This document shows, in pieces, positions 11,629 through 38,931 of a stretch of DNA of 42,479 bases. Where the stretch lies: contig CALZJE010000040.1 of assembly GCA_945787715.1 (NCBI GenBank), forward strand, positions 1 through 42,479, read 5' to 3'. Origin of the DNA: an uncultured Ectothiorhodospiraceae bacterium (GTDB lineage: Bacteria > Pseudomonadota > Gammaproteobacteria > S012-40). The position numbers and the translations under genes were made by a program. Under the pieces are notes generated by a model. It was given only the letters and a program-made list of their open reading frames with translations. It did no database searches and was not told the DNA's origin. How positions within the stretch are numbered: the first letter of the stretch is position 1; the number at the start of each line of letters is the position of its first letter.

Positions 11629-13236
11629 TTACAAACGACACCGTTCACCACAGCGTAATGCAATATCGATCGCGGCGATGGGTGTCTCATTCTTCGCCGG
11701 CGCGGTGTCGATCAAATGCGGGGTAATCATCAAAATCAATTCGCTGCGTTCATCGATTTGTTTGGTGGAAGTAAACAGTTGCCCCAGGCCGGGGATGTCC
11801 GACAGCCACGGCACCCGCTGCTCGCGGTCGCTACGGGTCTCCCTCACCAGGCCGCCAACGGCAATGGTGAAGTTGTCCTTAGCGATCACGGTGCCTTCCA
11901 GGCGTGCTGTGTTGATGGTATCCATGGGCAGTTGCAATACCTGCCCTCCGGAAACTACTGCTATTGATGCAGAGCCATCCTTAACTGTGGAGCTCTCTTG
12001 CTTCAACACCAAGGTGATGGTGTTGTCTGCATTAATATAAGGAGTGATTTCAATGACATTACCCACCTCCTCGATTTGTGTGGTGGGTACAATATTTGAA
12101 GAATTGAGGTTAACATTGCTGCCACTGTTATGGATCTCGGCGATTTTGTATCCAGTCACTATTATTCGCTGTTCACCAACGAAGAGCTTGGCGGGGCGAT
12201 TATTGGAGGCGAGTACCATGGGGGTAGACTGGATACGCACTCGATTATTCTGTTGAAAAAATTCGATGTTGGCTTTGAGGCGATCGTTAAGAAATTCAAA
12301 AACGAAACTGCCATTGGTCAAGGCGTTATTGCCCAGCAAAATAGGTTTCTCGCTATCACCGGTTAAACCAGAATTGGTAACCCCGAAGTTAAACACCGAA
12401 CTGAAATCGTCACCCACCAGCACGTCAAGCACCTTCATCTCCAGTAGTACTTGCGGTACCTGCCGATCCAAAGATTTAACTAGTTCGGTAATGCTACGCA
12501 AGGCAGCTTTGTCGCCCGTACGCACCACCACCAAATTATGTTCTGCGGCAATCGTGACAAAAATAGGTTCTTTTTGAGTCGAGATTTGTTGCAACTGATT
12601 TGAAGAAACCAAATTCCCACTATCGCCACTCGTCACTAGCCCCGCCAATTGGTCAACACTTAGGCCAGCATCCACCGTTTCCTTAACCGCGACACTTCCT
12701 CCAGAACCACTGGAACTGCCGCCCTGTTGAGAGCCGCTATTAATGCTTTCCTGACCCGAACCCTTGCCTGAGCTACTAAGCTGCACCCGCTTCCCGTAGA
12801 GATTGGCAATCGTCTCGGCCACTAGGTTGACATTAGGATTGCGCAGGGTAAACACCTGGGTTTTTTCGTCACGGTGAACCACTAGATCGCGGTTATATTC
12901 CTCGACCTCCATGATACGGAAAGTATCTGACGCAGTGTCAAGCCGATACCACAGACCAGTGATTTTACACAGTGTTTCGATCGCGTCCTTCACTGCCACA
13001 TGGCGCAGATAAAGTGTTACCTCTTTCTGACCCGCACTACGCGTGGCAACGATATTGACGCCGTACAACTCAGAGATAATGCGTGCTGCATCCACCACCT
13101 TGGCTGCTTTTAGTTCGAGTTGCTCGATGCGATGTTCTGCACCTCCGTGGGCCTGAGCAACCAAGGTAACAATCAACAAACAAATCAGAATAACTGTTTT
13201 GCCTGCTCGTGAAAAACTAGTGCTGCTCTTCAACAT
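11629..13236 (-). CDS. Secretin (PilQ/MshL/GspD family outer membrane channel)
   Basis: 535 residues with a signal peptide (about 1-29). Residues 34-110 form an STN-like N-domain (LELKAAKVVDAARIISELYGVNIV). An N1-type domain follows (TLRNPNVNLVAETIANLYG). There is a Ser/Gly-rich linker near 155-180. The secretin core (about 255-520) has the conserved segment VPWLSDIPGLGQLF and the terminal ELILMITPHLI. It forms the gated outer membrane pore for the pilus fibre. At 535 residues it lacks the AMIN domains of PilQ and is closer in size to MshL. Its start overlaps the PilP-like stop (TAATG). The short Cys-containing tail after the conserved end (RCGERCRL) is unusual. Confidence 0.93.
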   Translation of the reverse strand: MLKSSTSFSRAGKTVILICLLIVTLVAQAHGGAEHRIEQLELKAAKVVDAARIISELYGVNIVATRSAGQKEVTLYLRHVAVKDAIETLCKITGLWYRLDTASDTFRIMEVEEYNRDLVVHRDEKTQVFTLRNPNVNLVAETIANLYGKRVQLSSSGKGSGQESINSGSQQGGSSSGSGGSVAVKETVDAGLSVDQLAGLVTSGDSGNLVSSNQLQQISTQKEPIFVTIAAEHNLVVVRTGDKAALRSITELVKSLDRQVPQVLLEMKVLDVLVGDDFSSVFNFGVTNSGLTGDSEKPILLGNNALTNGSFVFEFLNDRLKANIEFFQQNNRVRIQSTPMVLASNNRPAKLFVGEQRIIVTGYKIAEIHNSGSNVNLNSSNIVPTTQIEEVGNVIEITPYINADNTITLVLKQESSTVKDGSASIAVVSGGQVLQLPMDTINTARLEGTVIAKDNFTIAVGGLVRETRSDREQRVPWLSDIPGLGQLFTSTKQIDERSELILMITPHLIDTAPAKNETPIAAIDIALRCGERCRL

Positions 13237-21931: not shown

Positions 21932-22675
21932 TCAATACAGACATAACACCAGATCATCAGTGTTGCCTAAGTTTGGTGGGCAGGTGAGCGTTTGATTAAG
22001 ATCATACTTGCCGTTTAGCCCCATGCTGACGATGCGAGCATCCGTTTGATCAAGATCGAACAGTAGGTAAGGGCGGCCGTATTTGTCATGAGGAGCATCA
22101 CTGTTCAATTGACCAACAAAACGCCAGTCCAACAAGCAATCGTCATTAACACCGACTGCATCATTCTCAATACATGATGTAAATGCAGATCCAGGATTAT
22201 CATTAGCAACCGGTGAAAAAGTGAAAGGATCAGGCACTCCACGAATAAGCGTTATCGCATTGATGTAGATGTTATAAGGTGTGCCGGAACCAGTGGTGAG
22301 CAGTGCATCGCCCACATCTACTAATCCAGAATCGCCACCCGAAAGATAAGGCCCGCGCCAGCCGTTTTGATAATCAATGTTCCAATTGGTAACAGCAGTG
22401 GGTAGGTTAAACATAAATCTAAAGTCTGCAGGCGATGTTTGAGCGATACCATTAAAATTTCCCACATCCTGCTTGTATTTCAGTAACGCTTGACGAATTT
22501 GCTCCATTTCGAAACGTGCGGCTTGAATTTTAGCGTTAGTTTGCACCGAGCCACTGCCGGTACCAAAACTACTTACTGCCATACTACCCAAGACTGCCAG
22601 AATTATTACAACCACCACCAATTCAAGCAAGGTAAATCCCTGCTCATAACGGCGTTTGTCAACTCTCTCATTCAT
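21932..22675 (-). CDS. Type IV prepilin-like protein (GspG/H type, 247 aa)
   Basis: I choose the ATG at 22675, with AGGA seven bases upstream; an upstream in-frame start at 22729 lacks this. The leader is short and basic (NERVDKRRYEQG), cleaved before FTLLELVVVVIILAVLGSMAVSSF, with Glu5 present. The mature domain contains WRGPYLSGGDSG and DKYGRPYLLFDLD, a GspG-like pattern of small disordered loops. Two Cys pairs near the C-terminus (SCIENDAVGVNDDCLLDW, TCPPNLGNTDDLVLCLY) could form disulfides, as in classic pilin D-loops. It is transcribed between the largest prepilin gene and the periplasmic protein gene. Confidence 0.87.
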   Translation of the reverse strand: MNERVDKRRYEQGFTLLELVVVVIILAVLGSMAVSSFGTGSGSVQTNAKIQAARFEMEQIRQALLKYKQDVGNFNGIAQTSPADFRFMFNLPTAVTNWNIDYQNGWRGPYLSGGDSGLVDVGDALLTTGSGTPYNIYINAITLIRGVPDPFTFSPVANDNPGSAFTSCIENDAVGVNDDCLLDWRFVGQLNSDAPHDKYGRPYLLFDLDQTDARIVSMGLNGKYDLNQTLTCPPNLGNTDDLVLCLY

Positions 22676-22783
22676 ATTTTTTTCCTGAAAAAAACGAGGA
22701 GACGCCGATGGACGCCACCCCGTTTTCATATGTCCCGCTAATTAAATCAATGATGGCGGGTCAAACTAACGAACTAAACGAAT

Positions 22784-23884
22784 TTAGCCCTTCTGACCGC
22801 TGAACTCAGCGATTTCTTCATCAAGAAAATCACCTCGGGCATCAATGATTGCTTGAACGTAGGCCTTACCGCCGCTCAAAGGAACATCAGTGGCGGTGGC
22901 AGTTAACAATCGACCATCGGCATCCCCATCGGTACCCACATTAATCAGTGCGATATAATGCGCATATTTATCCTTGCCAATTTGCCCGTAGAATGGTGCT
23001 TTAGCATAGGGTGAATCAGGCCCTCCAATGAAATCAGACGCTTGACCGATACCTAATCCAATCAACACCGCATTTTCATCAGCACCCACTTTTTTATTGT
23101 TATAGCCACCATCACCACGCTTCCATATCATCACTGGCTCAAGGGCCGCCATGGGAACGGAGAAACCACGTCCGCGGTTGTTCCATTCAGCGCCATTTGG
23201 CTGAGGATCTTCAAAGGCATGGTTGGGGATATCAGCATTAATTAGGAAATGCGCTGCATCACCAAAATCGGCTGCTGCTGTAATTGTAGAACCGCCGATA
23301 GTCGCGGTGTTTTCTACAGTGGTGGCATCATTGTCGCAAGCAGCTGCAACTGCATAGCGAACATTCAACACGCCTACATCAGTAAGTGCTAGCGCTTCTT
23401 TAGCGTCGGCAGCAACTAAGTCAAACTTACCCGCTAGCTTGGCACCGATACCGCCACCGATTCCGGAAATGTCGGATATACCACCAAATTTGTAGGACGT
23501 GGCAGCTAAAACTGGGGAAGGTGCCGCGGCATTAACAATTGCACCAGCTGCAGCCAAAGGACGGCAGGCCAGAGATTCCAGATTGTCCGGCAGACGCTTT
23601 TCGGCCGTTTGGTAATAGCGCAAGTTGCTTTCAATGCTCGCAATAACATTAGTCGCAGTTCCTTGTGCTGCTTTAGTTTCCTGACCGCCGAAAGACCCAA
23701 TTGCGGCACCACCAACAATCGCTAGAATCGCGACAACCACCAGAAGCTCAAGTAGCGTGAACCCACCTTCTTTGCGCTTCAGGCGCAAGGCTTTTTTGCG
23801 GAGTTTTTTATCTTCAATGCATTCAACGGATTTGATGTCTAGCGCATTGAATTTTGCGACTACTTCTTTTGCATTTTTTATCAT
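22784..23884 (-). CDS. Type IV prepilin with unusually long leader (366 aa)
   Basis: The ATG at 23884 follows GGAA; an upstream TTG at 23899 is less likely. The leader is 41 residues, very basic near its end (KKLRKKALRLKRKEGG), before FTLLELLVVVAILAIVGGAAIGSF with Glu5. Most prepilin leaders have 6-25 residues. The mature part is about 325 residues, Ala/Gly-rich, with a Cys in SLACRPL and another in AAACDND. As the first prepilin gene of the operon it is a good candidate for the major subunit, but its size is large for one. The gap to the next prepilin is about 110 bp. Confidence 0.87.
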   Translation of the reverse strand: MIKNAKEVVAKFNALDIKSVECIEDKKLRKKALRLKRKEGGFTLLELLVVVAILAIVGGAAIGSFGGQETKAAQGTATNVIASIESNLRYYQTAEKRLPDNLESLACRPLAAAGAIVNAAAPSPVLAATSYKFGGISDISGIGGGIGAKLAGKFDLVAADAKEALALTDVGVLNVRYAVAAACDNDATTVENTATIGGSTITAAADFGDAAHFLINADIPNHAFEDPQPNGAEWNNRGRGFSVPMAALEPVMIWKRGDGGYNNKKVGADENAVLIGLGIGQASDFIGGPDSPYAKAPFYGQIGKDKYAHYIALINVGTDGDADGRLLTATATDVPLSGGKAYVQAIIDARGDFLDEEIAEFSGQKG

Positions 23885-24012
23885 TACAATGTATTCCAAT
23901 TAGTTAATTTATCCGGGCCACTCCACTCGCAGGAGCTGGTTGTCGGTATTGATCATTTAGGGAAGAATGTGCGACCCCGCGCCGCCACGAAAATTAGTTT
24001 TACCTGGTGTTT

Positions 24013-24772: not shown

Positions 24773-27700
24773 ATGAAGCACGGAATGAAGATCACTTTTG
24801 TGGCAAAGATATTGGATTGTCGTTTGTGGTTCACCCCGTTATTTCTTCTATTCACTTTAATGAGTTCACAAGCTGTTTTCGCTGGCGAAACTTATCTCAC
24901 TAACACGGACAACGAAAATAATGCGCTAGAAGGCGTGGCTGATTTCGATTTAGATAATTTCATCACTCGTGGGGACGATCGTTCCCCAATAGAATTCAAC
25001 ATCAATCTCACTGGCGATCTCCCTACTGAATCTGCTCATTTAACATTACGTACGTTTGATATTGATGAAAAATCGGGTGAAATTGATAACGTTTATTTGA
25101 ACGGTAATTTTATTGGTTTTTTAACCGGTATGAATGGGCAGTGGAGCACATCAGTATTCGAAGTTGACAAAGACTTTATCGTTGCCGGCAATAATCTCAT
25201 TGAAATTCAGGTTAATGCGGGCTATCCCGATGTCACCAGTTCTATTAAGTGGGCGGTTACCGTTGATTGGGCACAGTTGTTGATCGATGGTGGTATCGCA
25301 GGCCGCGCTGATAACAAAGATATATCAATTATCGCTTACCTTGTTAATGACAATGACATCACTATTAACACACGTTCCGAAGTGTTTACTACGGTGGGGG
25401 GGCAATTTCTTGTCGAAATTAAACTGATAGACCCGAATGGAAATGTTATCAGTGTAGATTCGGAAAGTTTTAGTACTAATCCAGGCGCTACGCAAATTAT
25501 TGAACAAGTATCTGATTACAGTCTTACCGGTTCTACCGGTACTTACACCATTCAGGCGCTGCTATTTTTTGTTGATGCAGATGGGATACTGCAACAACAG
25601 GATATCGAAGCACTAGAGTTTGTGCATACCGCAGGAGTCGGCGCTATTGATATGGATGGCGATACATTAACCAATGAAGAAGAAAAGCAGATTGGCACCA
25701 GCCCATATAACTCGGATACTGATGGTGACGGAGTTGGTGATGCTGAAGAAGTTGGACCCGATATCAATTCACCACTTGATTCAGACGATGATGGTGTCAT
25801 GGATGCGCTTGAGTCCTCATTTTTAGATAGTGATAATGATGGTGTGCATGATCAGAGTGACCCGGAAGATAGTAATCCCTGTGCGCCCAACCTGGTAAGC
25901 GATGCCTGTTTATCGTTGGATACGGATAACGATGGATTAACCAATGGACAAGAAATACTTTTAGGAACAAATCTCAATGAGGCGGACACTGACGGCGATG
26001 GCATTGAAGACCTAAGCGAAGTTGGGAATGATGTAAACTTGCCACTCAATGCTGACAGTGATGATTTTATTGATGCGCTAGAGTCGGCGATAAATGATAG
26101 CGATGGTGATGGTGCCAGTGACCAAAACGATGCTGAGAACACAAATCCGTGTGTGCCTTTTCCCGATGCAGCAGAATGTTTAAACATTGATTCAGATGGT
26201 GATGGCTTGAGCAATGCGCAGGAAATTGCGTTGGGTACAAATCAAAATAATCCTGATACCGATGGCGATCAAATCCCGGATGGTGTGGAAGTAGGCAATA
26301 ATTTTAGTAATCCAATCGATAGCGACATTGATAGCCGAATCGATGCGTTGGAATCTGCCATTGCCGATGCGGACAGTGATGGCTGGAATGATCAGATTGA
26401 TCCCGCTAACAATAATCCTTGTATTCCCAATGTAAACAGCAACACCTGTGTTGGCCTGGACAATGACGGTGATGGTGTCCCGAATGCACAAGACACAGAT
26501 GCAGATAACGACGGCATTCCGAACATCGTGGAAGGCACAAGTGACAATGATGGCGATGGTGTTCCAAACCACCTCGATCTTGACAGTGATGGCGACGGCA
26601 TCAGTGACATCATCGAAGCGGGCGGCATTGACAGCAATGTTGACGGCGTGCTGGATAACGCTAACGACAGTGACGGCGATGGTCTGGCCGATTTGGTTGA
26701 TCTCGATAGCGGCGGCACTCCAATCATCCCACAGGACGCTGATGCAGACGGCATTCCCGACTTTGCTGAATCCAATACCATTGACGCCGATGGTGACGGC
26801 TTAAGTAACGCCGCCGATAAAGACGCAGACAATGATGGTATCCCCGATGGAGTGGAAGCCGGTAGCAATCCCAACTCACCGGTTGATACAGACAACGACG
26901 GCCTAGAGGATTATCTCGACCTTGATAGTGATAACGATGGTCTAACTGATCTCATTGAAGCTGGCGGAATTGACGGCAATGGCGATGGCAAGTTGGATGA
27001 TTTTGCGGATAGTGACAATGATGGACTTGCTGATCTGGTTGATTCCGATAATGGGGGCACGGCATTACCGATCCCGGATACAGATAATGATGGTATTAAA
27101 GATTTCCGTGACTGGGATAGCGACAACGACAGCATCGCAGACCTGGTCGAAGCTGGAGGCGTCGATGCTAATGGGGATGGCAAGACAGACGAGCAAACCG
27201 ACACTGATAATGATGGTTTAGTAGACCTCTTCGACCCCGACAATAGTGGTTCGCCACTGACCACCGATGATAGCGATGGCGACGATCTACACAACGGAAT
27301 AGATTCAGGAGCGGCGGATCAGGACAATGACGGTGTTAATGACCAGGATGATCTTTCAAATAATAACGCCTGTGATCCTAATCCTAATAGCATGGCTTGC
27401 TTCAGTGGCTCAGCCGATCGTGATGATGATGGTTTAACTAATACTCAGGAAGCAGCATTAGGTACCGATCCCACACAGCTAGATAGTGATGGCGATGGAC
27501 AATCAGATCTGGCCGAAGTGAGTGATCCAGACTCTCCAACAGATACTGACGGCGACGGAATCATAGATGCCATTGAATCCAACAACCACGACACGGATGG
27601 TGACAGCATTGTTGACGCGCAGGATATGGATACGGATGGTGACGGTATTCCAGATGTTATTGAAAAAGGCGGCAGTCCTGCCGTTGCAGATAGTGATGAT

Positions 27701-30700
27701 GATGGTGTGCCAGACTATCGTGACCTCGACAGTGACAATGACGGTCTTACCGATTTAGTTGAGGGTGGTGGTATTGACCGCAACGGTGACGGTTTGTTAG
27801 ATGATCAACAGGATTCTGGTGATGATGGTTTGGCTGATCTAGTTGATTTCAAAGATGGTGGTACGCCGCTAACACTTCCTGACAGCGATAATGATGGCAT
27901 GCGAGATTACGTTGATTTAGACAGTGATGCTGATGGTTATAGTGACTTGCTCGAATCGGGTGTTACTCACAACAGTGTCGACGGCCGCCAGGACAATCTC
28001 ACCGATACCGACGGTGACGGCTTGGTAGATACGGTTGATTCTGATAATGGCGGGATACCATTAGCGGCGATTGATACCGACTTGGATGGTTTATTAGATT
28101 ATCGGGATAGCGACAGTGATGCGGATGGCGCATTGGACCTCACTGACCCCGCACGCACAGATCCATGTAACCCAAAACTTGATACAGCTGCTTGCCTTGG
28201 TACTGAACACAGTGACGGTGATGGCTTGACCGATGCACAAGAAGTTGCTCTTGGCACTGATCCCAATAATGCGGATAGTGACGGAGACGGGGTTGACGAT
28301 GGTACCGAAGTCGGAGTCAATCCGAGCACACCGTTGGATACTGATAAAGACGGCATCATTGATGCGCTGGAGTCATCCAACGAAGATACAGACGGCGATG
28401 GCATAGTTAATTCCAGCGATGATGATAGCGATGGTGACGGTATACCTGATGTGCTCGAAGCAGGGCCAGCGAGTAATCTCTTGCTCGATACTGACAGTGA
28501 TGGTCTAACTGATGTCCACGATCCAGATTCTGATGGCGATGGCTTACCCGACTTTTTCGAAGGAGGTCTGAGTGGTATCGATACTGATGGTGATGGCATC
28601 GATGATGTGTTCGATGTTGATCAAACCGGTGGCGTCGATGCTAACAGTGACGGTATTGATGACCTTGTTCAAACACGAGACACTGATGGTGACGACTTTC
28701 CGGATTTTCGTGACATCGATACTGATAACGATGGCATATCCGATCAAGCAGAAGCAAACATGAGTGGTGCAGATGTCGATGGTGATGGTATCGACGATGT
28801 CATCGATGTTGATCAAACTAGTGGCACCGATAGCAACGGTGATGGCATTGATGACAGTTACTCACTCCCTGATACTGATGGTGATACTGTTGCTGATTTT
28901 CGTGATCTTGACAGCGACAACGACAGTATCAATGATGTTATCGAAGCAGATTTTAGTGATGCTAACAATGACGGTATGGCGGATAGTGGGCAAGTTGTGA
29001 CAAACAGTCCGCAAAATACTGACAGCGATGACTCACCGGATTACCGAGATCTCGATTCGAACAATGATGGCGTGTTCGATATCGATGACGCAGGGCTTGG
29101 TGATCTGGATGCTGATAATGATGGGCATATTGACAGCTCCACCGACAGCGACGGAGATGGTCTAGCTAATGTGACGGATGACAATCCCGATCGATTTGGT
29201 GAAGCTGTAAGCGAACCTAGCCGAGCACCATCACCATCAGATATTGATGGTGATGGCATTCTAAATACAGTGGATTTTGATGCGGACAATGACGGCATCC
29301 CTGATGCTGAAGAAGGCGCAGGTCATTCCGACAATGATGGTATTCCGAATAATCTAGATTTAGACAGTGACGGTGATGGTATTTACGACATCATCGAAGG
29401 TGGTGGCATTGATAGTGATAACGATGGCATGGTTGATAACTTCACTGATGACAATGCAAACGGTATTGCAGATGTTTATGACGCTGATGATCTCGACGGT
29501 GTACCACTCAAAGCAATCGATACTGACGGTGATGGTGTGCAAAATTATTTGGACTTGGATAGCGATGCAGACGGTTTCCCCGATGCGCAGGAAAAACTGA
29601 ATGACTTCGATGGCGACGGTATTGCGGATTACATTGATAAGAGTAAAAAACTGCGCACGGCTACCAGTGGCATCGGTGCAAATGGCCTGGAACTATTGTT
29701 GTTTTTCGCTTTACTACTTGTGATCAGAAAATTAATAAGGCGTCGTGAAAAATTTTTAGCAGCAATTTGTGTGATTATGAGTGCAAATGCTCAAGCAGCA
29801 ATGGATACAGAAGAAAAGATAGCAGAAATACCTGTGCATGATTGGCCAATTAAACGTTTGTACCTGGGGCTAGATCTTGGCGCATCATGGTTAGATCCTA
29901 GAGACAATGATTCCAATTTTCATGTTGCTGATAACACCAGTCAAGGAATGAGAATCGAAGTCGGATATGATTGGTCCAAGCACATAGCCTTCGAAGGTTT
30001 CTACCTTTATCCAGGGTCTGCAGTAATTAATCATGTAGATCCTGCGATTGGGCGTTTGGGCCGGGTGAATTATCATATCCTTGGCCTTGGTATCGACTAT
30101 CGTCCGTTGTGGCATGAAAAAGTGATATTGCCTCATCTTAAATTGGGCTTGTCGACCACGCGTAACATCACAACTGATGATCGCATAAACTACAAGCGCG
30201 AATCCACGATGGCTTTGTATTTTGGCGTAGGTGTCAGTTGGCGTTTTCGACAAGACTGGGCGGCAAACGCCGAGCTGGTCACGTATGACAATGACGAAGC
30301 GTTTTTGTCAGTAGGGCTGCGAAAATATTTCGGTGGCAAAAAGCAGGAAGAGATAATACCCATACCGATCGCAACACCCAAACCACCGATTGATAAAGAT
30401 GAAGACGGGGTTCCAGATTTTCGTGATCAATGTACAGACACACCTAAAGGTGAGAAAGTAGGGAAATGGGGATGCGAACTTGATGATGATAAAGATACTA
30501 TTGTCAACCGATTAGACATGTGTCCAGATACCAAACTCGATGCCAAAGTGGATAACAGCGGCTGTGAAATCCCCGAGATTATTATCCTTCGTGGCGTGAA
30601 TTTCGAAACCGGTTCAGAAAAGTTGAAACCGGATTCTAAATACGTCCTGGATGATGCTGCGGATATATTAGTTCGCTATCCCGCCTTGAAAGTGGAGATT

Positions 30701-30913
30701 GCCGGACACACTGATAATCGAGGTAATGCTGAATTCAATCTGCAACTCTCACAAAAACGTGCTGAATTGGTACGCGAATACCTTATAGGTAGGGGTGTAA
30801 TCAGCGAAAATCTTACAGCTAAAGGGTATGGTGAAACCCAGCCCTTGGATGATGCAGAGAACGACGACGCCTGGATGGTGAATCGTCGTGTAGAGCTGCA
30901 TATGCTCGAATGA
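24773..30913 (+). CDS. Giant TSP3-like repeat protein fused to OmpA-family barrel and peptidoglycan-binding domain
   Basis: I choose the ATG at 24773 (AAGGAAAG upstream) over an in-frame TTG at 24713; this gives 2046 residues. Order: signal peptide (1-37, AVFA/G); N-terminal beta domain (about 38-290); about 1330 residues of Asp-rich repeats such as DTDGDGIPD and DSDNDGLTD, typical of calcium-binding thrombospondin type 3 repeats; a GIGANG motif, hydrophobic helix and RRR (1633-1658), like GlyGly/PEP-CTERM sorting tails; a second signal-peptide-like segment ending ANAQA (1675); an outer membrane barrel (about 1690-1860); two short Cys-containing TSP3 units; an OmpA C-terminal domain (about 1935-2046) with AGHTDNRG and LSQKRAELV. 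A surface-exposed Ca-binding stalk anchored to outer membrane and peptidoglycan fits. The internal sorting tail plus signal peptide suggests two ancestral genes fused in frame. Confidence 0.85.
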   Translation: MKHGMKITFVAKILDCRLWFTPLFLLFTLMSSQAVFAGETYLTNTDNENNALEGVADFDLDNFITRGDDRSPIEFNINLTGDLPTESAHLTLRTFDIDEKSGEIDNVYLNGNFIGFLTGMNGQWSTSVFEVDKDFIVAGNNLIEIQVNAGYPDVTSSIKWAVTVDWAQLLIDGGIAGRADNKDISIIAYLVNDNDITINTRSEVFTTVGGQFLVEIKLIDPNGNVISVDSESFSTNPGATQIIEQVSDYSLTGSTGTYTIQALLFFVDADGILQQQDIEALEFVHTAGVGAIDMDGDTLTNEEEKQIGTSPYNSDTDGDGVGDAEEVGPDINSPLDSDDDGVMDALESSFLDSDNDGVHDQSDPEDSNPCAPNLVSDACLSLDTDNDGLTNGQEILLGTNLNEADTDGDGIEDLSEVGNDVNLPLNADSDDFIDALESAINDSDGDGASDQNDAENTNPCVPFPDAAECLNIDSDGDGLSNAQEIALGTNQNNPDTDGDQIPDGVEVGNNFSNPIDSDIDSRIDALESAIADADSDGWNDQIDPANNNPCIPNVNSNTCVGLDNDGDGVPNAQDTDADNDGIPNIVEGTSDNDGDGVPNHLDLDSDGDGISDIIEAGGIDSNVDGVLDNANDSDGDGLADLVDLDSGGTPIIPQDADADGIPDFAESNTIDADGDGLSNAADKDADNDGIPDGVEAGSNPNSPVDTDNDGLEDYLDLDSDNDGLTDLIEAGGIDGNGDGKLDDFADSDNDGLADLVDSDNGGTALPIPDTDNDGIKDFRDWDSDNDSIADLVEAGGVDANGDGKTDEQTDTDNDGLVDLFDPDNSGSPLTTDDSDGDDLHNGIDSGAADQDNDGVNDQDDLSNNNACDPNPNSMACFSGSADRDDDGLTNTQEAALGTDPTQLDSDGDGQSDLAEVSDPDSPTDTDGDGIIDAIESNNHDTDGDSIVDAQDMDTDGDGIPDVIEKGGSPAVADSDDDGVPDYRDLDSDNDGLTDLVEGGGIDRNGDGLLDDQQDSGDDGLADLVDFKDGGTPLTLPDSDNDGMRDYVDLDSDADGYSDLLESGVTHNSVDGRQDNLTDTDGDGLVDTVDSDNGGIPLAAIDTDLDGLLDYRDSDSDADGALDLTDPARTDPCNPKLDTAACLGTEHSDGDGLTDAQEVALGTDPNNADSDGDGVDDGTEVGVNPSTPLDTDKDGIIDALESSNEDTDGDGIVNSSDDDSDGDGIPDVLEAGPASNLLLDTDSDGLTDVHDPDSDGDGLPDFFEGGLSGIDTDGDGIDDVFDVDQTGGVDANSDGIDDLVQTRDTDGDDFPDFRDIDTDNDGISDQAEANMSGADVDGDGIDDVIDVDQTSGTDSNGDGIDDSYSLPDTDGDTVADFRDLDSDNDSINDVIEADFSDANNDGMADSGQVVTNSPQNTDSDDSPDYRDLDSNNDGVFDIDDAGLGDLDADNDGHIDSSTDSDGDGLANVTDDNPDRFGEAVSEPSRAPSPSDIDGDGILNTVDFDADNDGIPDAEEGAGHSDNDGIPNNLDLDSDGDGIYDIIEGGGIDSDNDGMVDNFTDDNANGIADVYDADDLDGVPLKAIDTDGDGVQNYLDLDSDADGFPDAQEKLNDFDGDGIADYIDKSKKLRTATSGIGANGLELLLFFALLLVIRKLIRRREKFLAAICVIMSANAQAAMDTEEKIAEIPVHDWPIKRLYLGLDLGASWLDPRDNDSNFHVADNTSQGMRIEVGYDWSKHIAFEGFYLYPGSAVINHVDPAIGRLGRVNYHILGLGIDYRPLWHEKVILPHLKLGLSTTRNITTDDRINYKRESTMALYFGVGVSWRFRQDWAANAELVTYDNDEAFLSVGLRKYFGGKKQEEIIPIPIATPKPPIDKDEDGVPDFRDQCTDTPKGEKVGKWGCELDDDKDTIVNRLDMCPDTKLDAKVDNSGCEIPEIIILRGVNFETGSEKLKPDSKYVLDDAADILVRYPALKVEIAGHTDNRGNAEFNLQLSQKRAELVREYLIGRGVISENLTAKGYGETQPLDDAENDDAWMVNRRVELHMLE
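25651..29640 (+). repeat. Coding Asp-rich TSP3-like repeat tract
   Basis: About 4 kb encodes degenerate D-x-D-x-D-G-x-x-D units, mostly GATAGTGATGGCGATGG-like DNA. Superimposed is a larger module marked by a Cys pair (NPC-P-x(5-7)-C), with the first Cys at 25880, 26150, 26420, 27371 and 28166. The first three are exactly 270 bp apart. The Ser/Pro-rich open frames on the opposite strand are by-products of this codon pattern. Confidence 0.9.
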
Positions 30914-31454: not shown

Positions 31455-32054
31455 TCATTGTTCTGGGTGTATTAGCTTTACTTGGGGATAATATGTTTTA
31501 TATTTACTCAAGTCTCTGGTTATAAGATCAAGTTTTGATACCGACGCATGTGCGCCGATGAAGAAATCGGGTAATGCCGAAGTTTTTGTTCCTTTATTTC
31601 TTCGGTATTTGAGGAATACTTTTCCTGTAAGAAATAGTGCCTCACGAGGTAATTCCAAGACCTTGATTCCCAGTTCAGAGATAGCTTGTTCCAATTCTTC
31701 TATTTGAGTAAAACCAATTGATATTTCTGTATAGACAATAGAGTTTATGTACAAAGTGTTTCTTTGGCTATATTGCTCCAGTATACTTTCAGACCAATCA
31801 GCCCAGTGAGGATCATCTGTAAATAAATCGAGTAAAACGCATGAGTCAACAAGGATTCCATTCATCAAATTTTTGGCGGTTGCTATCCCTCTGAATTTAT
31901 TGAATTTTCCTTCAGTATGAGTAGGTTCGCCGGTCTTGATAATATAGAATTTTCCATCATCTTCCACAAAATCAATTTCAGTTTCGGGCACAATGCCTAG
32001 ACTTTCTCTTACATTGCGTGGAATTGTCACTTGCCCCTTTGTTGTGACTCGCAT
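31455..32054 (-). CDS. AbrB/MazE-type antitoxin fused to PIN-domain toxin
   Basis: 199 residues; ATG with GGAG eight bases upstream. Residues 1-60 are a SpoVT/AbrB DNA-binding swapped-hairpin domain (MRVTTKGQVTIPRNVRESLGI...EIDFVEDDGKFYIIK). Residues 64-199 are a complete VapC-like PIN nuclease beginning MNGILVDSCVLLDLF, with the acidic residues D70, E110, D163 and D181 present. In the usual two-gene arrangement the antitoxin ends with a toxin-binding tail and a stop before this methionine. Here FRGIATAKNL runs straight into it, so the tail seems deleted and the two proteins joined. The toxin may also start internally at 31865, but no good ribosome site precedes it. Self-inhibited fusion and inactivated remnant are both possible. 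Confidence 0.85.
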   Translation of the reverse strand: MRVTTKGQVTIPRNVRESLGIVPETEIDFVEDDGKFYIIKTGEPTHTEGKFNKFRGIATAKNLMNGILVDSCVLLDLFTDDPHWADWSESILEQYSQRNTLYINSIVYTEISIGFTQIEELEQAISELGIKVLELPREALFLTGKVFLKYRRNKGTKTSALPDFFIGAHASVSKLDLITRDLSKYKTYYPQVKLIHPEQ

Positions 32055-32819: not shown

Positions 32820-33157
32820 CGACCTCTTCCTTTTTGTTGAGTTAACATGTTGAATAACTGAAAATTAATACGTATTCTACGGAGGGGTAATTGCTGTCTG
32901 ATGGATGTAAATGAACATTAAATAAACAGCTCAAGAAGTGGTTCACGACTTATTGCCAAATTGTAATGACTTAGTAGAATACTCAGGCTGGTTAGAGCGA
33001 TAGGTTAATGCTAACATGCGGCACGAAAGGTAAGAATTAGGCGAATGCTTTGTAGGAAAAGATTGTTTTTTATACAGAGTTTTCGAAGTAGTTATAAGAA
33101 CATAATTCAGATGGAAATCTTCGAAGTTTTTAACATTTCCCCATTGGAGTTGTATTG
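32820..33157. other. Intergenic region upstream of ccmA
   Basis: About 340 bp without a credible gene. One frame near 32930-33110 gives short protein-like segments but is broken by several stops, so I do not call a pseudogene. The ccm promoter should lie here; a TATACA near 33072 is a weak candidate -10. GGAG at 33146-33149 is the ccmA ribosome site. Confidence 0.4.
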
Positions 33158-33805
33158 ATGCTCGAATGCATTAACCTGGAATGTATGCGAGGCGATCGCA
33201 GGCTCTTTAGTGGGCTTAACTTCTCATTGAATGAAGGTGAATTGCTGCATATAAAAGGTGCCAATGGTAGTGGTAAAACTTCGCTGATGCGAATCATGGC
33301 CGGCCTCATGTTAGAAGAAGATGGGGAAATACGCTGGAATGGCAAATGTATTCGCAAGCTTAGGGAAGAATATCAAAAAGATATGCTCTACTTGGGCCAT
33401 TTGCCTGGAATAAAAGCAGATCTCACCGCTTTGGAAAACCTTCGCGTTAACAGCGCAATGTCGGGCAATGAAATTTCCGAAGATGTTGCGTGGGCTGCAC
33501 TTGGAAAAATAGGTTTAAAAGGTAGGGAAGATCTACCAGCGCGAGTATTATCGCAGGGTCAGCAAAGAAGGGTAGCATTAGCTGGAATGTTGGTTTCCAA
33601 AGCGAAAATTTGGATTTTAGACGAGCCGTTTACAGCGCTGGATGTAAAAGCAGTGGTAATGCTACAAGATGTTTTGGCTGAACATCTTGAGAATAACGGC
33701 ATGATTGTTTTGTCTACCCATCAGGATTTTACGGTTTCCAGGGGGAGTTTGAGAATGATTGACCTGGGAGCATTGTCGCATGAAGTGGGGGAGGCGCATC
33801 AATGA
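33158..33805 (+). CDS. ccmA: CcmA, heme exporter ATP-binding protein
   Basis: 215 residues from the ATG at 33158 (GGAG 8 bp upstream). Walker A is GANGSGKTS (34-42), the ABC signature LSQGQQRRVALAG (family norm LSAGQQRRVALAR) and Walker B IWILDEPFTALD. CcmA is the cytoplasmic ATPase of the CcmABCD complex, which releases holo-CcmE during cytochrome c maturation. It overlaps ccmB by 4 nt (ATGA), as is usual. Length is normal. Confidence 0.95.
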   Translation: MLECINLECMRGDRRLFSGLNFSLNEGELLHIKGANGSGKTSLMRIMAGLMLEEDGEIRWNGKCIRKLREEYQKDMLYLGHLPGIKADLTALENLRVNSAMSGNEISEDVAWAALGKIGLKGREDLPARVLSQGQQRRVALAGMLVSKAKIWILDEPFTALDVKAVVMLQDVLAEHLENNGMIVLSTHQDFTVSRGSLRMIDLGALSHEVGEAHQ

Positions 33806-34454
33806 TTCAGGTAATGCGCTGGCTAATTTGGCGTGATATGACGCTAGCAATGCGTCGTAAAGCAGAAGTGCTGACTACATTGTTATTCTTTGTTATTGTT
33901 GTCACACTTTTTCCATTGGGTGTTGGTCCGGATATCGACATGCTTCAGGAAATAGCCCCCGGTGTTTTGTGGGTTGCTGCATTATTAGCATCCATGTTGT
34001 CGCTTAATCGTTTATTTGCTGATGATTATGTAGACGGATAATTTCATCACAGCCATTAGCATTGTTAGTGCTGAGTAAAATATTAAGCCATTGGTTTTTA
34101 ACCGGCTTACCGCTGGTACTGATTTCACCGATATTGGGATTCCAGTTAGGATTGGAAACAGAAAGCATCATAATATTGATGATGACACTTTTAATAGGTA
34201 CACCTGTCCTAAGTTTAATAGGTGCAGTTGGTGCTGGTTTAACATTGGGTGTACGTGGTGGGGGAGTATTACTTTCTCTTTTGGTTTTACCACTTTACAT
34301 CCCAGTGTTGATTTTTGGATCAGGTGCCGTAGACGCTGCCAGGTCTGGTTTGGGCGTAGAAGCACATTTTTCATTGTTGGGTGCGTTTTTGGTGGGAGCG
34401 CTTCTGTTAGCACCACTGGGCGCAGCGGCAGCTTTGAGAATTTCATTAGATTAA
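33802..34454 (+). pseudogene. ccmB: ccmB, frameshifted by an apparent 16-nt deletion
   Basis: The first frame encodes a normal CcmB start (79 residues: RDMTLAMRRKAEV, ITLFPLGV-like, APGVLWVAALLASML, DDYVDG) and stops at 34039-34041. A second frame resumes at 34044 with SSQPLALLVLSKILSHW and continues to the usual C-terminus AAALRISLD at 34454. In E. coli CcmB the loop reads DGSLEQLML before the next conserved stretch. Here only five bases (34039-34043) remain where about 21 are expected, so roughly 16 nt are missing. The rest is intact, which suggests a recent event or an assembly artefact. CcmB is the membrane subunit of the CcmABCD complex; loss should impair release of heme-CcmE. Confidence 0.85.
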
Positions 34455-34526
34455 TTCATACCTGTATTAATCAAGATGTTAAAAAGTATAGATATTTATG
34501 CTTTTAGTAAGAGGTATTAAGGGTTG

Positions 34527-35279
34527 ATGAGTATATTTACTAAGGCTTTTTGGTTGCAGCTTTCTTCACCAAAAGTATTTTATCCCATAGCTGATAAGTC
34601 AATTCCGTGGCTTTTAACAGCGACTGTTTTATTATTATTAGTTGGACTTTATTACGCATTCATCGTTGCGCCAGTGGATTACCAACAAGGAAACAGCTAC
34701 CGCATTATGTTTATCCATGTGCCCGCCGCATGGATGGGAATGTGGATTTATGTGGTTATGTGTATATATGCGATTATCGGTTTGATTTGGAATACCCGGT
34801 TATCCAATATGATGGCTGCAGCACTTGCACCAACTGGAGCCTTGTTCACCTTCCTCGCTTTATGGACAGGGGCTTTATGGGGTAAACCCACTTGGGGTGC
34901 TTATTGGGTTTGGGATGCTCGATTAACTTCCTTTCTTATTTTGCTCTTTTTATATTTTGGCTTTATGTCTTTGAGGGCTGCTATCGATGACCCTCGACGA
35001 GCGGCCAGGGCCAGTGCATTACTCGCGATGGTTGGTATCGTTAATATTCCGATTATTTATTTTTCTGTAAAGTGGTGGAACACATTGCACCAAGGTGCGT
35101 CTATAACATTAGATAAAGCACCCACTATGGCAGCATCCATGTTTACGGCAATGATGATTATGGCAGCAGCATTTTTAACATACACGTTTGCTGTCGCATT
35201 TATGCGCATTAGAAATGAGATATTAGAAAAAGAAAAAAATAGTGCTTGGGTAAACGAAATAGTAGGGCCAGAAAAATGA
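34527..35279 (+). CDS. ccmC: CcmC, heme-handling permease
   Basis: 250 residues from the ATG at 34527; a TTG just before it is less likely. Six membrane segments are visible. The tryptophan-rich heme-binding motif is WGAYWVWDARLTSFLI, and the expected periplasmic histidines occur in FIHVPAAWMGM and NTLHQGAS. CcmC loads heme onto CcmE at the periplasmic face. Its last codon overlaps ccmD (ATGA). Confidence 0.95.
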   Translation: MSIFTKAFWLQLSSPKVFYPIADKSIPWLLTATVLLLLVGLYYAFIVAPVDYQQGNSYRIMFIHVPAAWMGMWIYVVMCIYAIIGLIWNTRLSNMMAAALAPTGALFTFLALWTGALWGKPTWGAYWVWDARLTSFLILLFLYFGFMSLRAAIDDPRRAARASALLAMVGIVNIPIIYFSVKWWNTLHQGASITLDKAPTMAASMFTAMMIMAAAFLTYTFAVAFMRIRNEILEKEKNSAWVNEIVGPEK

Positions 35280-35440
35280 ACTTGCCAGAATTTTTAGACA
35301 TGGGCAAACACGCTTTTTACGTTTGGGGTTCTTACGGAGTAGTTGCATTATTTATGCTGTTAGAGGTTGTATTGTTGGTTTTGAAAAAACGCTCTCTGAC
35401 ACAAAGTATTGCGCGGTTAGCAAGATTGAATAGAGAGTAA
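35276..35440 (+). CDS. ccmD: CcmD, small heme-exporter subunit
   Basis: 54 residues starting MNLPEFLDMGKHAFYVWGSYG at an ATG that overlaps the ccmC stop. A longer in-frame start at 35246 lies inside ccmC and is unlikely. It has one membrane helix (VVALFMLLEVVLLVL) followed by a basic cytoplasmic tail. The GKHAFYVWGSYG segment is characteristic. CcmD stabilises the CcmABC-CcmE complex. Confidence 0.93.
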   Translation: MNLPEFLDMGKHAFYVWGSYGVVALFMLLEVVLLVLKKRSLTQSIARLARLNRE

Positions 35441-35445
35441 TCATT

Positions 35446-35904
35446 ATGAAGCAAAGACATAAACGACTGGCTGCTATTATCGGAGGGTTATCGGCATTAG
35501 CTGTTATCACTGCCTTATTGCTTAACGCATTTAATAGCAATATGGTTTTCTTTTTCAGCCCCAGTGACGTAGTTGCTAAGAAGGCGCCACAAAGTGGTAG
35601 TTTTCGCTTAGGCGGATTGGTTGGTGAAGGCTCTTTGGTGCGTGAAGACGATGGGCTGACTGTTCATTTTGATGTCACTGATAATGCAGAAACCATCAAT
35701 GTTACGTATAAAGGAATTCTCCCTGACCTATTTAGGGAAGGACAGGGTGTTGTAACGCAAGGTTCATTTGATTCTGTTGGCAATTTTGTTGCGTCTGAAG
35801 TGCTAGCAAAACATGATGAAACTTATATGCCACCAGAGGTTGCTGAGGCGCTTGAAAAGGCTGAACAGGCGGCTAAAAAAGTAGATAACGGAGGGGCTAT
35901 TTAA
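35446..35904 (+). CDS. ccmE: CcmE, periplasmic heme chaperone
   Basis: 152 residues with an N-terminal membrane anchor (about 8-28) and an OB-fold periplasmic domain. The heme-attachment histidine is H123 in LAKHDETYMPP, with the conserved tyrosine at 127, equivalent to E. coli H130 and Y134. It carries heme from CcmC to CcmF. The stop overlaps the ccmF start (TAATG). Confidence 0.95.
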   Translation: MKQRHKRLAAIIGGLSALAVITALLLNAFNSNMVFFFSPSDVVAKKAPQSGSFRLGGLVGEGSLVREDDGLTVHFDVTDNAETINVTYKGILPDLFREGQGVVTQGSFDSVGNFVASEVLAKHDETYMPPEVAEALEKAEQAAKKVDNGGAI

Positions 35905-37931
35905 TGTTACCTGAAATAGGCAATATCGCTTTGATAATGGCATTAGTAATTGCTGTTATTCAAGGCACGTTTCCCATTTATGGCGCTGCGAAAGGAAATG
36001 TTGCGATGATGTCTATCGCACGTCCAGCAGCAGCAGCGCAATTTATTTTTGTTGCAATTTCTTTCGGTTGTTTAGTGGCAGCATTTGTTACTAACGATTT
36101 TTCTGTGCTTTATGCAACAAACCATTCAAACTCTCAACTGCCTATGCTTTATAAAGTATCAGCTGTATGGGGCGGACATGAAGGCTCTATGCTTTTGTGG
36201 ATGCTAATGATAGCTGGTTGGGGTTGGTCAGTTGCTTTGTTTAGTCGCAAGTTGCCTTTAGAAATGGTCGCTCGCGTCATTGGTGTAATGGGATTACTTG
36301 CTGTTGGATTTTTCTGGTTTGTACTAGAAACTTCAAATCCTTTTGAACGTATTTTGCCGGCACTGGCTGACGGTCGAGATTTGAATCCTTTGTTGCAAGA
36401 TCCTGGTCTAGCTATTCATCCACCTATGTTATACATGGGATATGTGGGTTTCTCTGTTGCATTTGCATTTGCCATTGCAGCACTACTTAGTGGGAAAATG
36501 GATGCAACCTGGGCGCGTTGGTCTCGTCCATGGACAACTATTGCGTGGGTATTCCTGACATTTGGTATCGCACTTGGTTCGTGGTGGGCTTATTACGAAT
36601 TGGGCTGGGGCGGTTGGTGGTTCTGGGATCCCGTAGAAAATGCTTCCTTCATGCCTTGGATAGTGGGAACTGCTTTGGTGCATTCACTGGCTGTTACCGA
36701 GAAGCGTGGTAGTTTCAAAAACTGGACAGTATTGCTGGCTATTTTCGCATTCTCGTTGAGCCTATTGGGTACATTCCTGGTTCGTTCAGGTGTCTTAACT
36801 TCGGTCCATTCATTTGCAGTTGATCCGGAGCGTGGTCTGTTTATTCTTATTTATTTAGGTGTTGTTGTTGGCACGAGCCTAATCCTGTATGCATGGCGTG
36901 CTCCGAAAGTTGGTTTGGGAGGAAGGTTCGCTCTGGTTTCACGAGAGACTTTTCTGTTAACCAACAATGTTCTACTCATTGTTGCATGCGGGGCGGTATT
37001 GCTGGGTACTTTATATCCATTAGTTCTCGATGCACTGGGTGTTGGTAAAATTTCTGTCGGCCCTCCTTATTTCGATATGGTTTTTGTACCTATTATGGCC
37101 GTACTTGTATTTTTCATGGGAATTGGACCATTGGTTCGCTGGAAAAAAGCAGAGATACCAGATCTAGTGTCTAAATTAAAATACGCCGCTGGGGTAAGTG
37201 TTGTTACTGCGGTACTTGTGCCTTTCATCATGGGTGAATGGTCATTTATGAAGAGTCTGGGGATTTTGATGGCCGCTTGGATTCTCTCTAGTATTTTTGT
37301 TGGTATACGCAATCGTATTGTATTGAGTGCCAAAGCAGGTGGTAAAATCGGTAGTTTATCACGCAGCTATTATGGTATGCAGTTAGCGCATTTTGGTGTT
37401 GCTGTTTTTATTATCGGTGTAACCATGGTAAATGGTTATGAAGAAGATAAAGATGTGAGCATGAATGTTGGTGATACGGTTGAAGTTGGTGGTTATACTT
37501 TCCGATTTGATGGTGTTAAGAGCGCCCAAGGCCCAAATTATGAAACTCAAATCGGTACGTTGACGCTTTTTCACGATGGTGTGGAAATTGATGTTATGCG
37601 TCCTGAAAAACGTTATTACAATGTTCAGCAGCAGGTTATGACTGAAGCAGCAATTGACACCGGAATTTTTGGTGATCGTTATGTTTCCTTGGGTGAGCCA
37701 CTAGGTACACGTGGAGGATGGAGTGTTCGTGTATACAGCAAACCGTTTGTTGACTGGATATGGGCAGGTTGTTTCTTGATGGGTGTGGGTGGTTTTCTAG
37801 CCGTCAGCGATAAACGATATCGCCTTTCTTCGCGCAAAAAATCAAAAAGGGGAATTGATGAGACTCCAGATACAGAAAATGATGAGTCAGCTAAACCCGT
37901 GATGGTTTCTGTGAATGAGGGTAAGGTTTAA
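35904..37931 (+). CDS. ccmF: CcmF, cytochrome c heme lyase subunit
   Basis: 675 residues, about 15 membrane helices. The WWD heme-handling motif is ELGWGGWWFWDPVENASFMP. The family also shows GGHEGSMLLW and HPPMLYMGYVG with conserved histidines, and a long C-terminal periplasmic domain before the last helix. CcmF with CcmH and CcmI attaches heme to apocytochrome c. Length is typical. It overlaps ccmE and ccmG by one base each. Confidence 0.96.
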   Translation: MLPEIGNIALIMALVIAVIQGTFPIYGAAKGNVAMMSIARPAAAAQFIFVAISFGCLVAAFVTNDFSVLYATNHSNSQLPMLYKVSAVWGGHEGSMLLWMLMIAGWGWSVALFSRKLPLEMVARVIGVMGLLAVGFFWFVLETSNPFERILPALADGRDLNPLLQDPGLAIHPPMLYMGYVGFSVAFAFAIAALLSGKMDATWARWSRPWTTIAWVFLTFGIALGSWWAYYELGWGGWWFWDPVENASFMPWIVGTALVHSLAVTEKRGSFKNWTVLLAIFAFSLSLLGTFLVRSGVLTSVHSFAVDPERGLFILIYLGVVVGTSLILYAWRAPKVGLGGRFALVSRETFLLTNNVLLIVACGAVLLGTLYPLVLDALGVGKISVGPPYFDMVFVPIMAVLVFFMGIGPLVRWKKAEIPDLVSKLKYAAGVSVVTAVLVPFIMGEWSFMKSLGILMAAWILSSIFVGIRNRIVLSAKAGGKIGSLSRSYYGMQLAHFGVAVFIIGVTMVNGYEEDKDVSMNVGDTVEVGGYTFRFDGVKSAQGPNYETQIGTLTLFHDGVEIDVMRPEKRYYNVQQQVMTEAAIDTGIFGDRYVSLGEPLGTRGGWSVRVYSKPFVDWIWAGCFLMGVGGFLAVSDKRYRLSSRKKSKRGIDETPDTENDESAKPVMVSVNEGKV

Positions 37932-38464
37932 TGTCTCGTAGAGTTTTACCTATTACTGTTATTGTTATGTTTCTTGCGATGCTGGGTTTCTTTTATAAAG
38001 GATTGCAGCTTGATCCTCAAAAGTTACCTTCAGCGTTGTTGGATAAAGCCGCTCCGTCATTTACGTTACCTCAACTACATGATGCATCCAAAACGTTTAG
38101 CTTAGAAGATATGAAAGGCAAAGTTTGGTTGTTAAATGTGTGGGCGTCATGGTGTGCAGCATGTAGACAAGAGCATCCGCTATTTATGCAACTTGCGCGT
38201 CAAGGTGGTTTCCCTATTTATGGATTAAACTATAAAGACGAGGTAGCAGATGCCAAGCAGTGGCTCAAGCAATTGGGCGATCCGTACATTGTTAGTATTT
38301 CAGATTTAGAGGGTAACGTCGGCATTGATTATGGCGTTTACGGTGTACCTGAAACATTTCTTATCGATAAAGAAGGTGTTATCAGATACAAGCATGTCGG
38401 CCCTGTGAGTCGAACAGATTGGACTGAAATTATTGAGCCTAAAATGAAGGAGCTTGAAGGATGA
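37931..38464 (+). CDS. ccmG: CcmG/DsbE, thioredoxin-like thiol-disulfide oxidoreductase
   Basis: 177 residues with an N-terminal signal anchor (about 5-25) and a thioredoxin fold. The active site is WASWCAACRQEH (C75, C78) and the cis-Pro segment is YGVYGVPETFLID. It keeps apocytochrome CXXCH cysteines reduced in the periplasm. The start overlaps ccmF (TAATG) and the end overlaps ccmH (ATGA). Confidence 0.95.
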   Translation: MSRRVLPITVIVMFLAMLGFFYKGLQLDPQKLPSALLDKAAPSFTLPQLHDASKTFSLEDMKGKVWLLNVWASWCAACRQEHPLFMQLARQGGFPIYGLNYKDEVADAKQWLKQLGDPYIVSISDLEGNVGIDYGVYGVPETFLIDKEGVIRYKHVGPVSRTDWTEIIEPKMKELEG

Positions 38465-38931
38465 ATCGCAAAATAGTATTACTTATCGTGATGCTTCTGT
38501 GTGCCCCATTTTTACAGGCAAATGAAGCCCAATTAAGAGAAGACCCTGCCATTAAAGAGCGCTTTAAAGCGATAGCTTCAGAGCTGCGTTGTTTGAAATG
38601 TCAGAATCAAACAATTTACGATTCCCATGCCGGCCTAGCCGATGATTTGAAAAAACAGATCAGAAATCAGATAAATGCAGGAAAAACAGACGCAGAAATT
38701 GTCGATTATATGGTGACACGTTACGGTGATTTTGTTCGCTTTAACCCGGCAGTTGATACGAAAAATATTTTTCTCTGGGTTGGTCCCTTCGTATTCCTGG
38801 TTATTGGTGGTTTGTTACTTTATCGCTACATCAATGTTCGACGTAATGAGGCTGTCGATGATAATGAATCAATAAGTGAAGATGATCGTTTGAAAGCGAA
38901 ATCAATATTAGAGCAGAGTGGGGATAAGTAA
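38461..38931 (+). CDS. ccmH: CcmH, apocytochrome thiol reductase subunit
   Basis: 156 residues, signal peptide (1-20, LQA/N). The family motif LRCLKCQNQTI carries C44 and C47. A conserved helical stretch (ADDLKKQIRNQI, YMVTRYGDFVRFNP) and a C-terminal membrane helix (FLWVGPFVFLVIGGLLLY) follow. It works with CcmG and CcmF. It is the short CcmH form; the TPR part is encoded separately as ccmI. Confidence 0.95.
   Translation: MNRKIVLLIVMLLCAPFLQANEAQLREDPAIKERFKAIASELRCLKCQNQTIYDSHAGLADDLKKQIRNQINAGKTDAEIVDYMVTRYGDFVRFNPAVDTKNIFLWVGPFVFLVIGGLLLYRYINVRRNEAVDDNESISEDDRLKAKSILEQSGDK

Follow-up and report, generated by a model that had tools for sequence, protein, structure and literature searches.

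Can a single bacterial gene encode two surface proteins, with the sorting tail of the first and the signal peptide of the second standing back to back in the middle of one chain? Inventories list sorting tails as features of the C-terminus and seek them at protein ends. The window (the whole stretch of DNA analysed here, 42,479 nucleotides long) poses this question at positions 24773-30913, where translation yields one stop-free frame of 2046 amino acids, running from an ATG at 24773, preceded by the Shine-Dalgarno-like GGAAAG, to the stop at 30913. The sequence-only reading had proposed that two surface proteins are joined here in frame, and this is confirmed: the chain carries, in order, a signal peptide, an N-terminal domain, TSP3 repeats, a sorting tail, an internal signal-peptide-like segment, a beta-barrel, a linker and an OmpA domain (Table 1).

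Table 1. Features along the fused frame of the window, with the evidence for each.
Feature	Positions	Strand	Basis
N-terminal signal peptide (residues 1-37, ...SSQAVFA/GETYL)	24773..24883	+	Sequence; equivalent in homologue L116, ...PASVFA/GTSYL
N-terminal domain, fold unknown (residues 38-289, ~250 aa)	24884..25639	+	44% identity to L116 across 267 aa
TSP3 Ca-binding repeats (residues ~290-1622, ~1300 aa)	25640..29638	+	Pfam TSP3_bac; motif count
Internal sorting tail: GIGANG (1633-1638), hydrophobic helix LELLLFFALLLVI, RKLIRRR (to 1658)	29669..29746	+	Hydropathy, charge, leave-out junction profile, homologous tails
Internal signal-peptide-like segment EKFLAAICVIMSANAQA (1659-1675)	29747..29797	+	Aligns with N-terminal signal peptides of unfused homologues
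Outer-membrane beta-barrel OMP_b-brl	29798..30340	+	Pfam PF13505; family barrel profile
TSP3-like linker with Cys, between barrel and OmpA	30341..30580	+	PF02412 16.2 bits, weak, under cut-off; sequence
OmpA C-terminal peptidoglycan-binding domain (HTDNRG...LSQKRA motif)	30581..30910	+	PF00691

A Pfam search with the N-terminal domain gave no match, and the strongly acidic repeat region that follows it scores 57 bits to TSP3_bac over 17 stretches and contains 64 DxDxDG-like motifs. Downstream of the junction, both the OMP_b-brl barrel (PF13505, about 47-48.4 bits, cut-off 28.7) and the OmpA domain (PF00691, about 69-75 bits, cut-off 27.2) exceed their thresholds, so that the second half has the N-terminal barrel and C-terminal domain of an OmpA-type outer membrane protein. 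A single-sequence structure model of the junction-barrel-OmpA segment was too poor for use (mean pLDDT 34.8). Elsewhere in the window, a long operon on the reverse strand (1322-24390) includes a secretin-like gene (11701-12876) and two genes for proteins with an N-methylation motif (21932-22729 and 22784-23899), and looks like an MSHA/type IV pilus or type II secretion-like locus. Downstream of the fused gene, a 199-residue reverse-strand frame (31455-32054) has a MazE/AbrB-type antitoxin domain (residues 2-43) followed by a PIN domain (67-181), so that the antitoxin and toxin of a VapBC-like pair share one chain in a second in-frame fusion beside the first; cytochrome c maturation genes follow on the forward strand (33155-38931), comprising an ABC ATPase (33155-33805), a CcmC-like protein, CcmE, CcmF, a thioredoxin-like CcmG candidate and CcmH.

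At the junction, GIGANG begins at residue 1633, EKFLAAIC at 1659 and AMDTEEK, the first residues after ANAQA, at 1676, with a signal peptidase I site predicted after residue 1675. Hydropathy analysis detects only four hydrophobic stretches in the whole protein (18-31 in the N-terminal signal peptide, a marginal one at 262-273, 1636-1655 and 1660-1673), and the RRR at 1656-1658, between the last two, is its only run of three or more Lys or Arg residues. The Gly motif, hydrophobic helix and Arg cluster thus lie where the sequence-only reading had placed them, with an apparent signal peptide and an OmpA-type protein directly behind, as it had also claimed. The junctions of the other fused genes, without that of the window, were made into a profile and run on all six-frame open reading frames of the window; the profile ranks the fused frame first (E = 1e-5; next best 0.039), which places the junction beyond chance and marks it as homologous to those of other family members.

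The window belongs to a draft genome, and relatives exist in which the two halves are separate genes, both of which would suit an assembly or sequencing error that joined genes separate in the organism. A scan of genome contigs returned one near-identical genome and otherwise only distant OmpA domains. That genome (FO_M_Gamma_043.1, an uncultured Chromatiaceae bacterium; locus L048) matches 10,694 bases across the junction up to its contig end within the barrel, with two mismatches, at 20257 and 20920. Both are far from the junction, which is identical base for base and shows neither the stop codon nor the frameshift that would betray an error. Fusions of the same layout occur in 25 other genomes, and clades of fused genes with long branches keep the frame open. 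Given the identical junction and the recurrence of the fusion, we reject an assembly error, whose chance of being real is very remote.

To describe the family, a barrel profile made from six sequences was run on 369 genomes of the class, and the regions of the stronger matches were retrieved and read frame by frame. This yielded 38 fused frames, including that of the window, in 26 genomes from 15 families. In each, a hydrophobic helix comes first and a basic cluster generally follows; a second hydrophobic stretch, whose end resembles a signal peptidase site, then leads to the barrel. L040 and L138 start at a contig edge, and L111, L113, L125 and L126 are divergent and less certain. Fused and split counts rest on this 369-genome draw and on hydropathy rules rather than on a trained signal-peptide predictor, and the ratio of fused to split genes is no population estimate because regions were chosen by match strength and frame length. 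A phylum-wide draw with the barrel profile added two weak matches, from the same class, and says little about range. The N-terminal parts of the fused frames differ, being TSP3 repeats or other regions that look adhesin-like by eye. One genome (G021; loci L038, L039 and L042) encodes at least four fused paralogues with differing N-terminal regions and similar barrel-OmpA halves, plus further split pairs. The closest barrels to that of the window in the barrel tree (L103 and L107) are also fused, and a full-length homologue from another family (L116, genome G067) retains the N-terminal domain, TSP3 repeats, tail, internal signal peptide and barrel, with 44% identity in the N-terminal domain, 41% in the repeats and 34% from junction to OmpA domain. 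Homologues therefore keep the tail and signal peptide in succession, and the contrary case, a continuous fold lacking the motif, was not borne out.

Separate genes at the junction point, which the sequence-only reading had suggested looking for in orthologues, are indeed present. Most unfused relatives consist of two adjacent genes, encoding a CTERM-tailed protein and then an OmpA protein, often followed by the protease MrtJ; a small number of the family's unfused OmpA genes lack a CTERM neighbour. In one such pair (L041, genome G055), a JDVT-CTERM tail (29.8 bits, cut-off 27) closes the product of the first gene. That gene overlaps the second, which has its own start, Shine-Dalgarno sequence and signal peptide and encodes a barrel-OmpA protein. 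The 20 split pairs measured have a median gap of 1 nt; in 18 of them the genes overlap or lie at most 30 nt apart, and no spacing is more frequent than a 4-nt overlap. At seven of the loci retrieved (L041, L128, L130, L131, L132, L137 and L148), MrtJ adjoins the split OmpA gene, and further such neighbours were found by coordinates beyond these seven, which suggests a three-gene cassette of JDVT protein, OmpA protein and MrtJ rather than the published two-gene neighbourhood. Because the layout recurs in many relatives, and as two adjacent genes in others, it is very probable that the window encodes a real polyprotein.

Fused and split labels are clustered on the barrel tree relative to shuffles; even so, the tree requires at least 12 changes between them, eight forced by well-supported branches. 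Fusion, fission or both must therefore have happened repeatedly, and a single ancestral fusion without later change is ruled out. One close pair from a single genus, fused in L102 (G213) and split in L136 (G086), differs at the junction by indels; either the genes were fused or split recently, or one of the two draft genomes is in error here.

Could the two halves nevertheless be translated separately, by ribosomes restarting within the frame just upstream of the internal signal peptide, so that no single chain is processed? A GTG at 29720 is in frame and, used as a start, would yield MIRKLIRRREKFLAAICVIMSANAQA, which makes a good signal peptide; in a few homologues, a Shine-Dalgarno-like sequence accompanies an internal start. 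In the window, however, no ATG lies upstream of the hydrophobic region and no Shine-Dalgarno sequence precedes the GTG. Across the family, the best in-frame ATG has a median Shine-Dalgarno energy of -0.6 kcal/mol at the 38 fused junctions versus -5.5 kcal/mol in unfused genes (p = 0.006), and an ATG with good pairing is found at 4 of the 38 junctions compared with 15 of 29 unfused genes. Six of the 38 have no start codon of any kind, and Gly codons in the GG motif account for several of the good scores at fused junctions. The contrast weakens once GTG and TTG are included (good pairing in 12 of 38 versus 19 of 29; energies p = 0.10), so internal starts are possible in some members. As a general mode, this comparison disfavors internal initiation, and we regard separate translation as quite unlikely.

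If one chain is made and sorted, which protease would recognize the tail? The sequence-only reading had likened its tripartite layout to that of GlyGly-CTERM and PEP-CTERM tails. Positions 29576-29850 gave no match to the GlyGly-CTERM model TIGR03501 even at E <= 10 (cut-off 15.5 bits), and the exosortase model PF09721 had no match in the genome of the window. Since no exosortase was found there, PEP-CTERM is unlikely and was dropped. The tail also lacks a Cys and does not match the JDVT-CTERM model NF033191 (cut-off 27 bits). That curated model exceeds its cut-off inside four fused frames and at the C-terminus of split partners, and JDVT-type Cys tails, fused or split, come from genomes with an MrtJ above its cut-off in 15 of 15 cases against 6 of 44 for other tails (Fisher p = 1.4e-9, ignoring kinship). 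Rhombosortase is found in 36 of 37 genomes with a strong barrel-family member versus 91 of 332 others (p = 1.4e-17, again ignoring kinship), an association that reflects shared ancestry in part. The genome of the window encodes a rhombosortase (TIGR03902, C9:58649-59104, 153 bits, cut-off 84), an MrtJ (C8:21875-22156, about 105 bits [104.8], cut-off 75), one separate JDVT protein on contig C16 and the type II secretion component GspD (579 bits). Lacking a Cys, the tail makes rhombosortase a better candidate than MrtJ, and with neither CTERM model fitted and no GG pair the sorting protease is uncertain; provided that one acts at all, the odds lean slightly towards rhombosortase. In VesB, the second Gly of the GG pair becomes the C-terminus (PMC6219818).

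Our favored reading, in which we have good though not full confidence, is a natural polyprotein: a fused form of a conserved two-gene module, made of an adhesin with its sorting tail and an OmpA-type partner, that forms a membrane hairpin and is cut twice. Both cleavages, the topology and the pairing of adhesin with barrel are what we infer from this arrangement. The N-terminal signal peptide would route the TSP3 half through Sec until the tail helix halts in the inner membrane, leaving RKLIRRR on the cytoplasmic side. The internal signal peptide would use the same basic cluster as its n-region, and its helix would re-enter the membrane, completing a two-helix hairpin, and export the barrel-OmpA half. 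Signal peptidase I would then cut after ANAQA and free the OmpA partner, with the barrel inserted in the outer membrane by BAM and the OmpA domain placed on peptidoglycan. An intramembrane sorting protease, probably rhombosortase, would cut near GIGANG, after which type II secretion would carry the freed, lipid-anchored adhesin to the surface. There it may dock on its barrel partner, as is thought for TraA on TraB. The layout is consistent with such a topology: one helix crosses to the cytoplasm from the periplasm, the basic residues lie inside, and a second helix leads back out to a signal peptidase site.

Were only signal peptidase I to cut, or no enzyme at all, the product would be an adhesin tethered to the inner membrane by its hairpin or a protein joining both membranes. 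Some members, such as L038_3 and L100_19, do have long linkers between internal signal peptide and barrel. In many others, however, between a few and about 25 residues separate the predicted cleavage site from the start of the barrel; on geometric grounds such a linker is too short to span the periplasm, so the barrel should not sit in the outer membrane with the helix still in the inner one. Moreover, sorting signals that match curated models occur in the family, as does a sorting protease linked to it, and we consider incomplete processing unlikely. We place at about even odds a more far-reaching proposal, built on the twice-cut polyprotein: a widespread class in which one basic cluster both ends a sorting tail and starts an internal signal peptide, two membrane proteases release adhesin and barrel anchor, and the fusion, gained or lost many times, provides a Gammaproteobacterial counterpart of TraA-TraB with a possible role in cell-cell recognition. 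If so, each surface adhesin and its dedicated barrel anchor would be released in a 1:1 ratio.

Because a curated sorting domain sits mid-protein in this recurrent family, inventories of protein ends would miss such proteins, whose annotation would probably read no more than 'OmpA family protein'. The fused genes serve as Rosetta stones: they lead one to expect that adjacent CTERM proteins and OmpA barrels cooperate, and that MrtJ systems comprise three genes in many cases. A large testable class of bacterial polyproteins with internal export signals is useful, given how rare such proteins are. One example is FbcH, the cytochrome b/c1 polyprotein of Bradyrhizobium, whose internal signal peptide is cut by signal peptidase; unlike the window protein, it is a respiratory enzyme of unrelated function with no sorting tail.

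Several sorting systems share parts of this design. As in GlyGly-CTERM/rhombosortase systems, the window tail combines a Gly-rich motif, a helix and a basic cluster, and its genome has rhombosortase and type II secretion (PMC3237569, PMC6219818); it differs in lacking GG and a TIGR03501 match, in the second export signal that follows it and in ending at residue 1658 of 2046 instead of at the extreme C-terminus, where GlyGly-CTERM is defined. JDVT-CTERM tails (NF033191) occur in several fused and split family members, and MrtJ (NF033192) lies beside the OmpA gene, whereas the window's own tail has no Cys motif; the published JDVT neighborhood, as relayed from earlier work in PMC11980579, is MrtJ plus its target, while here an OmpA gene lies between the two. 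TraA and TraB likewise pair a CTERM-tailed surface protein with an OmpA-domain partner, from genes that share four bases where they overlap (PMC3325183). Of the NCBIfam models, TraB (NF033763) matches the window OmpA half best, at 118.6 bits, which is far below its cut-off of 700. However, TraA/TraB are two genes and the window has one, no exchange function is implied, and neither a PA14 nor a Cys-repeat domain was detected in the window protein.

Among the closest known systems is also MXAN_5598 of Myxococcus xanthus, which by layout unites a large adhesin region, an internal sorting motif, an outer membrane beta-barrel and an OmpA domain in one chain. Mass spectrometry has listed it among proteins of outer-membrane vesicles (PMC4158809). 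In the sections of the 2025 mBio myxosortase paper that concern it, its internal MYXO-CTERM motif lies between adhesin and barrel-OmpA parts, the protein is likened to TraA plus TraB, and gene fusion with processing of the N-terminal half is proposed; precedents for functional internal sorting signals, among them an archaeosortase substrate, are cited there as well (PMC11980579). As presented in those sections, MXAN_5598 is the same kind of object, and the polyprotein idea is therefore not new. It is, however, a single case in a discussion, with MYXO-CTERM and the myxosortase MrtX in Myxococcota, and the internal signal peptide and split relatives of the present class do not figure in those sections (PMC11980579). 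In the open-licence papers searched, neither the Gammaproteobacterial class nor its JDVT or GlyGly-like versions, its internal signal peptide or an OmpA gene between JDVT protein and MrtJ was found described. What appears to be new here, beside MXAN_5598, is the breadth of the class, its repeated fusion or fission, the internal signal peptide, and the occurrence of JDVT and GlyGly-like versions.
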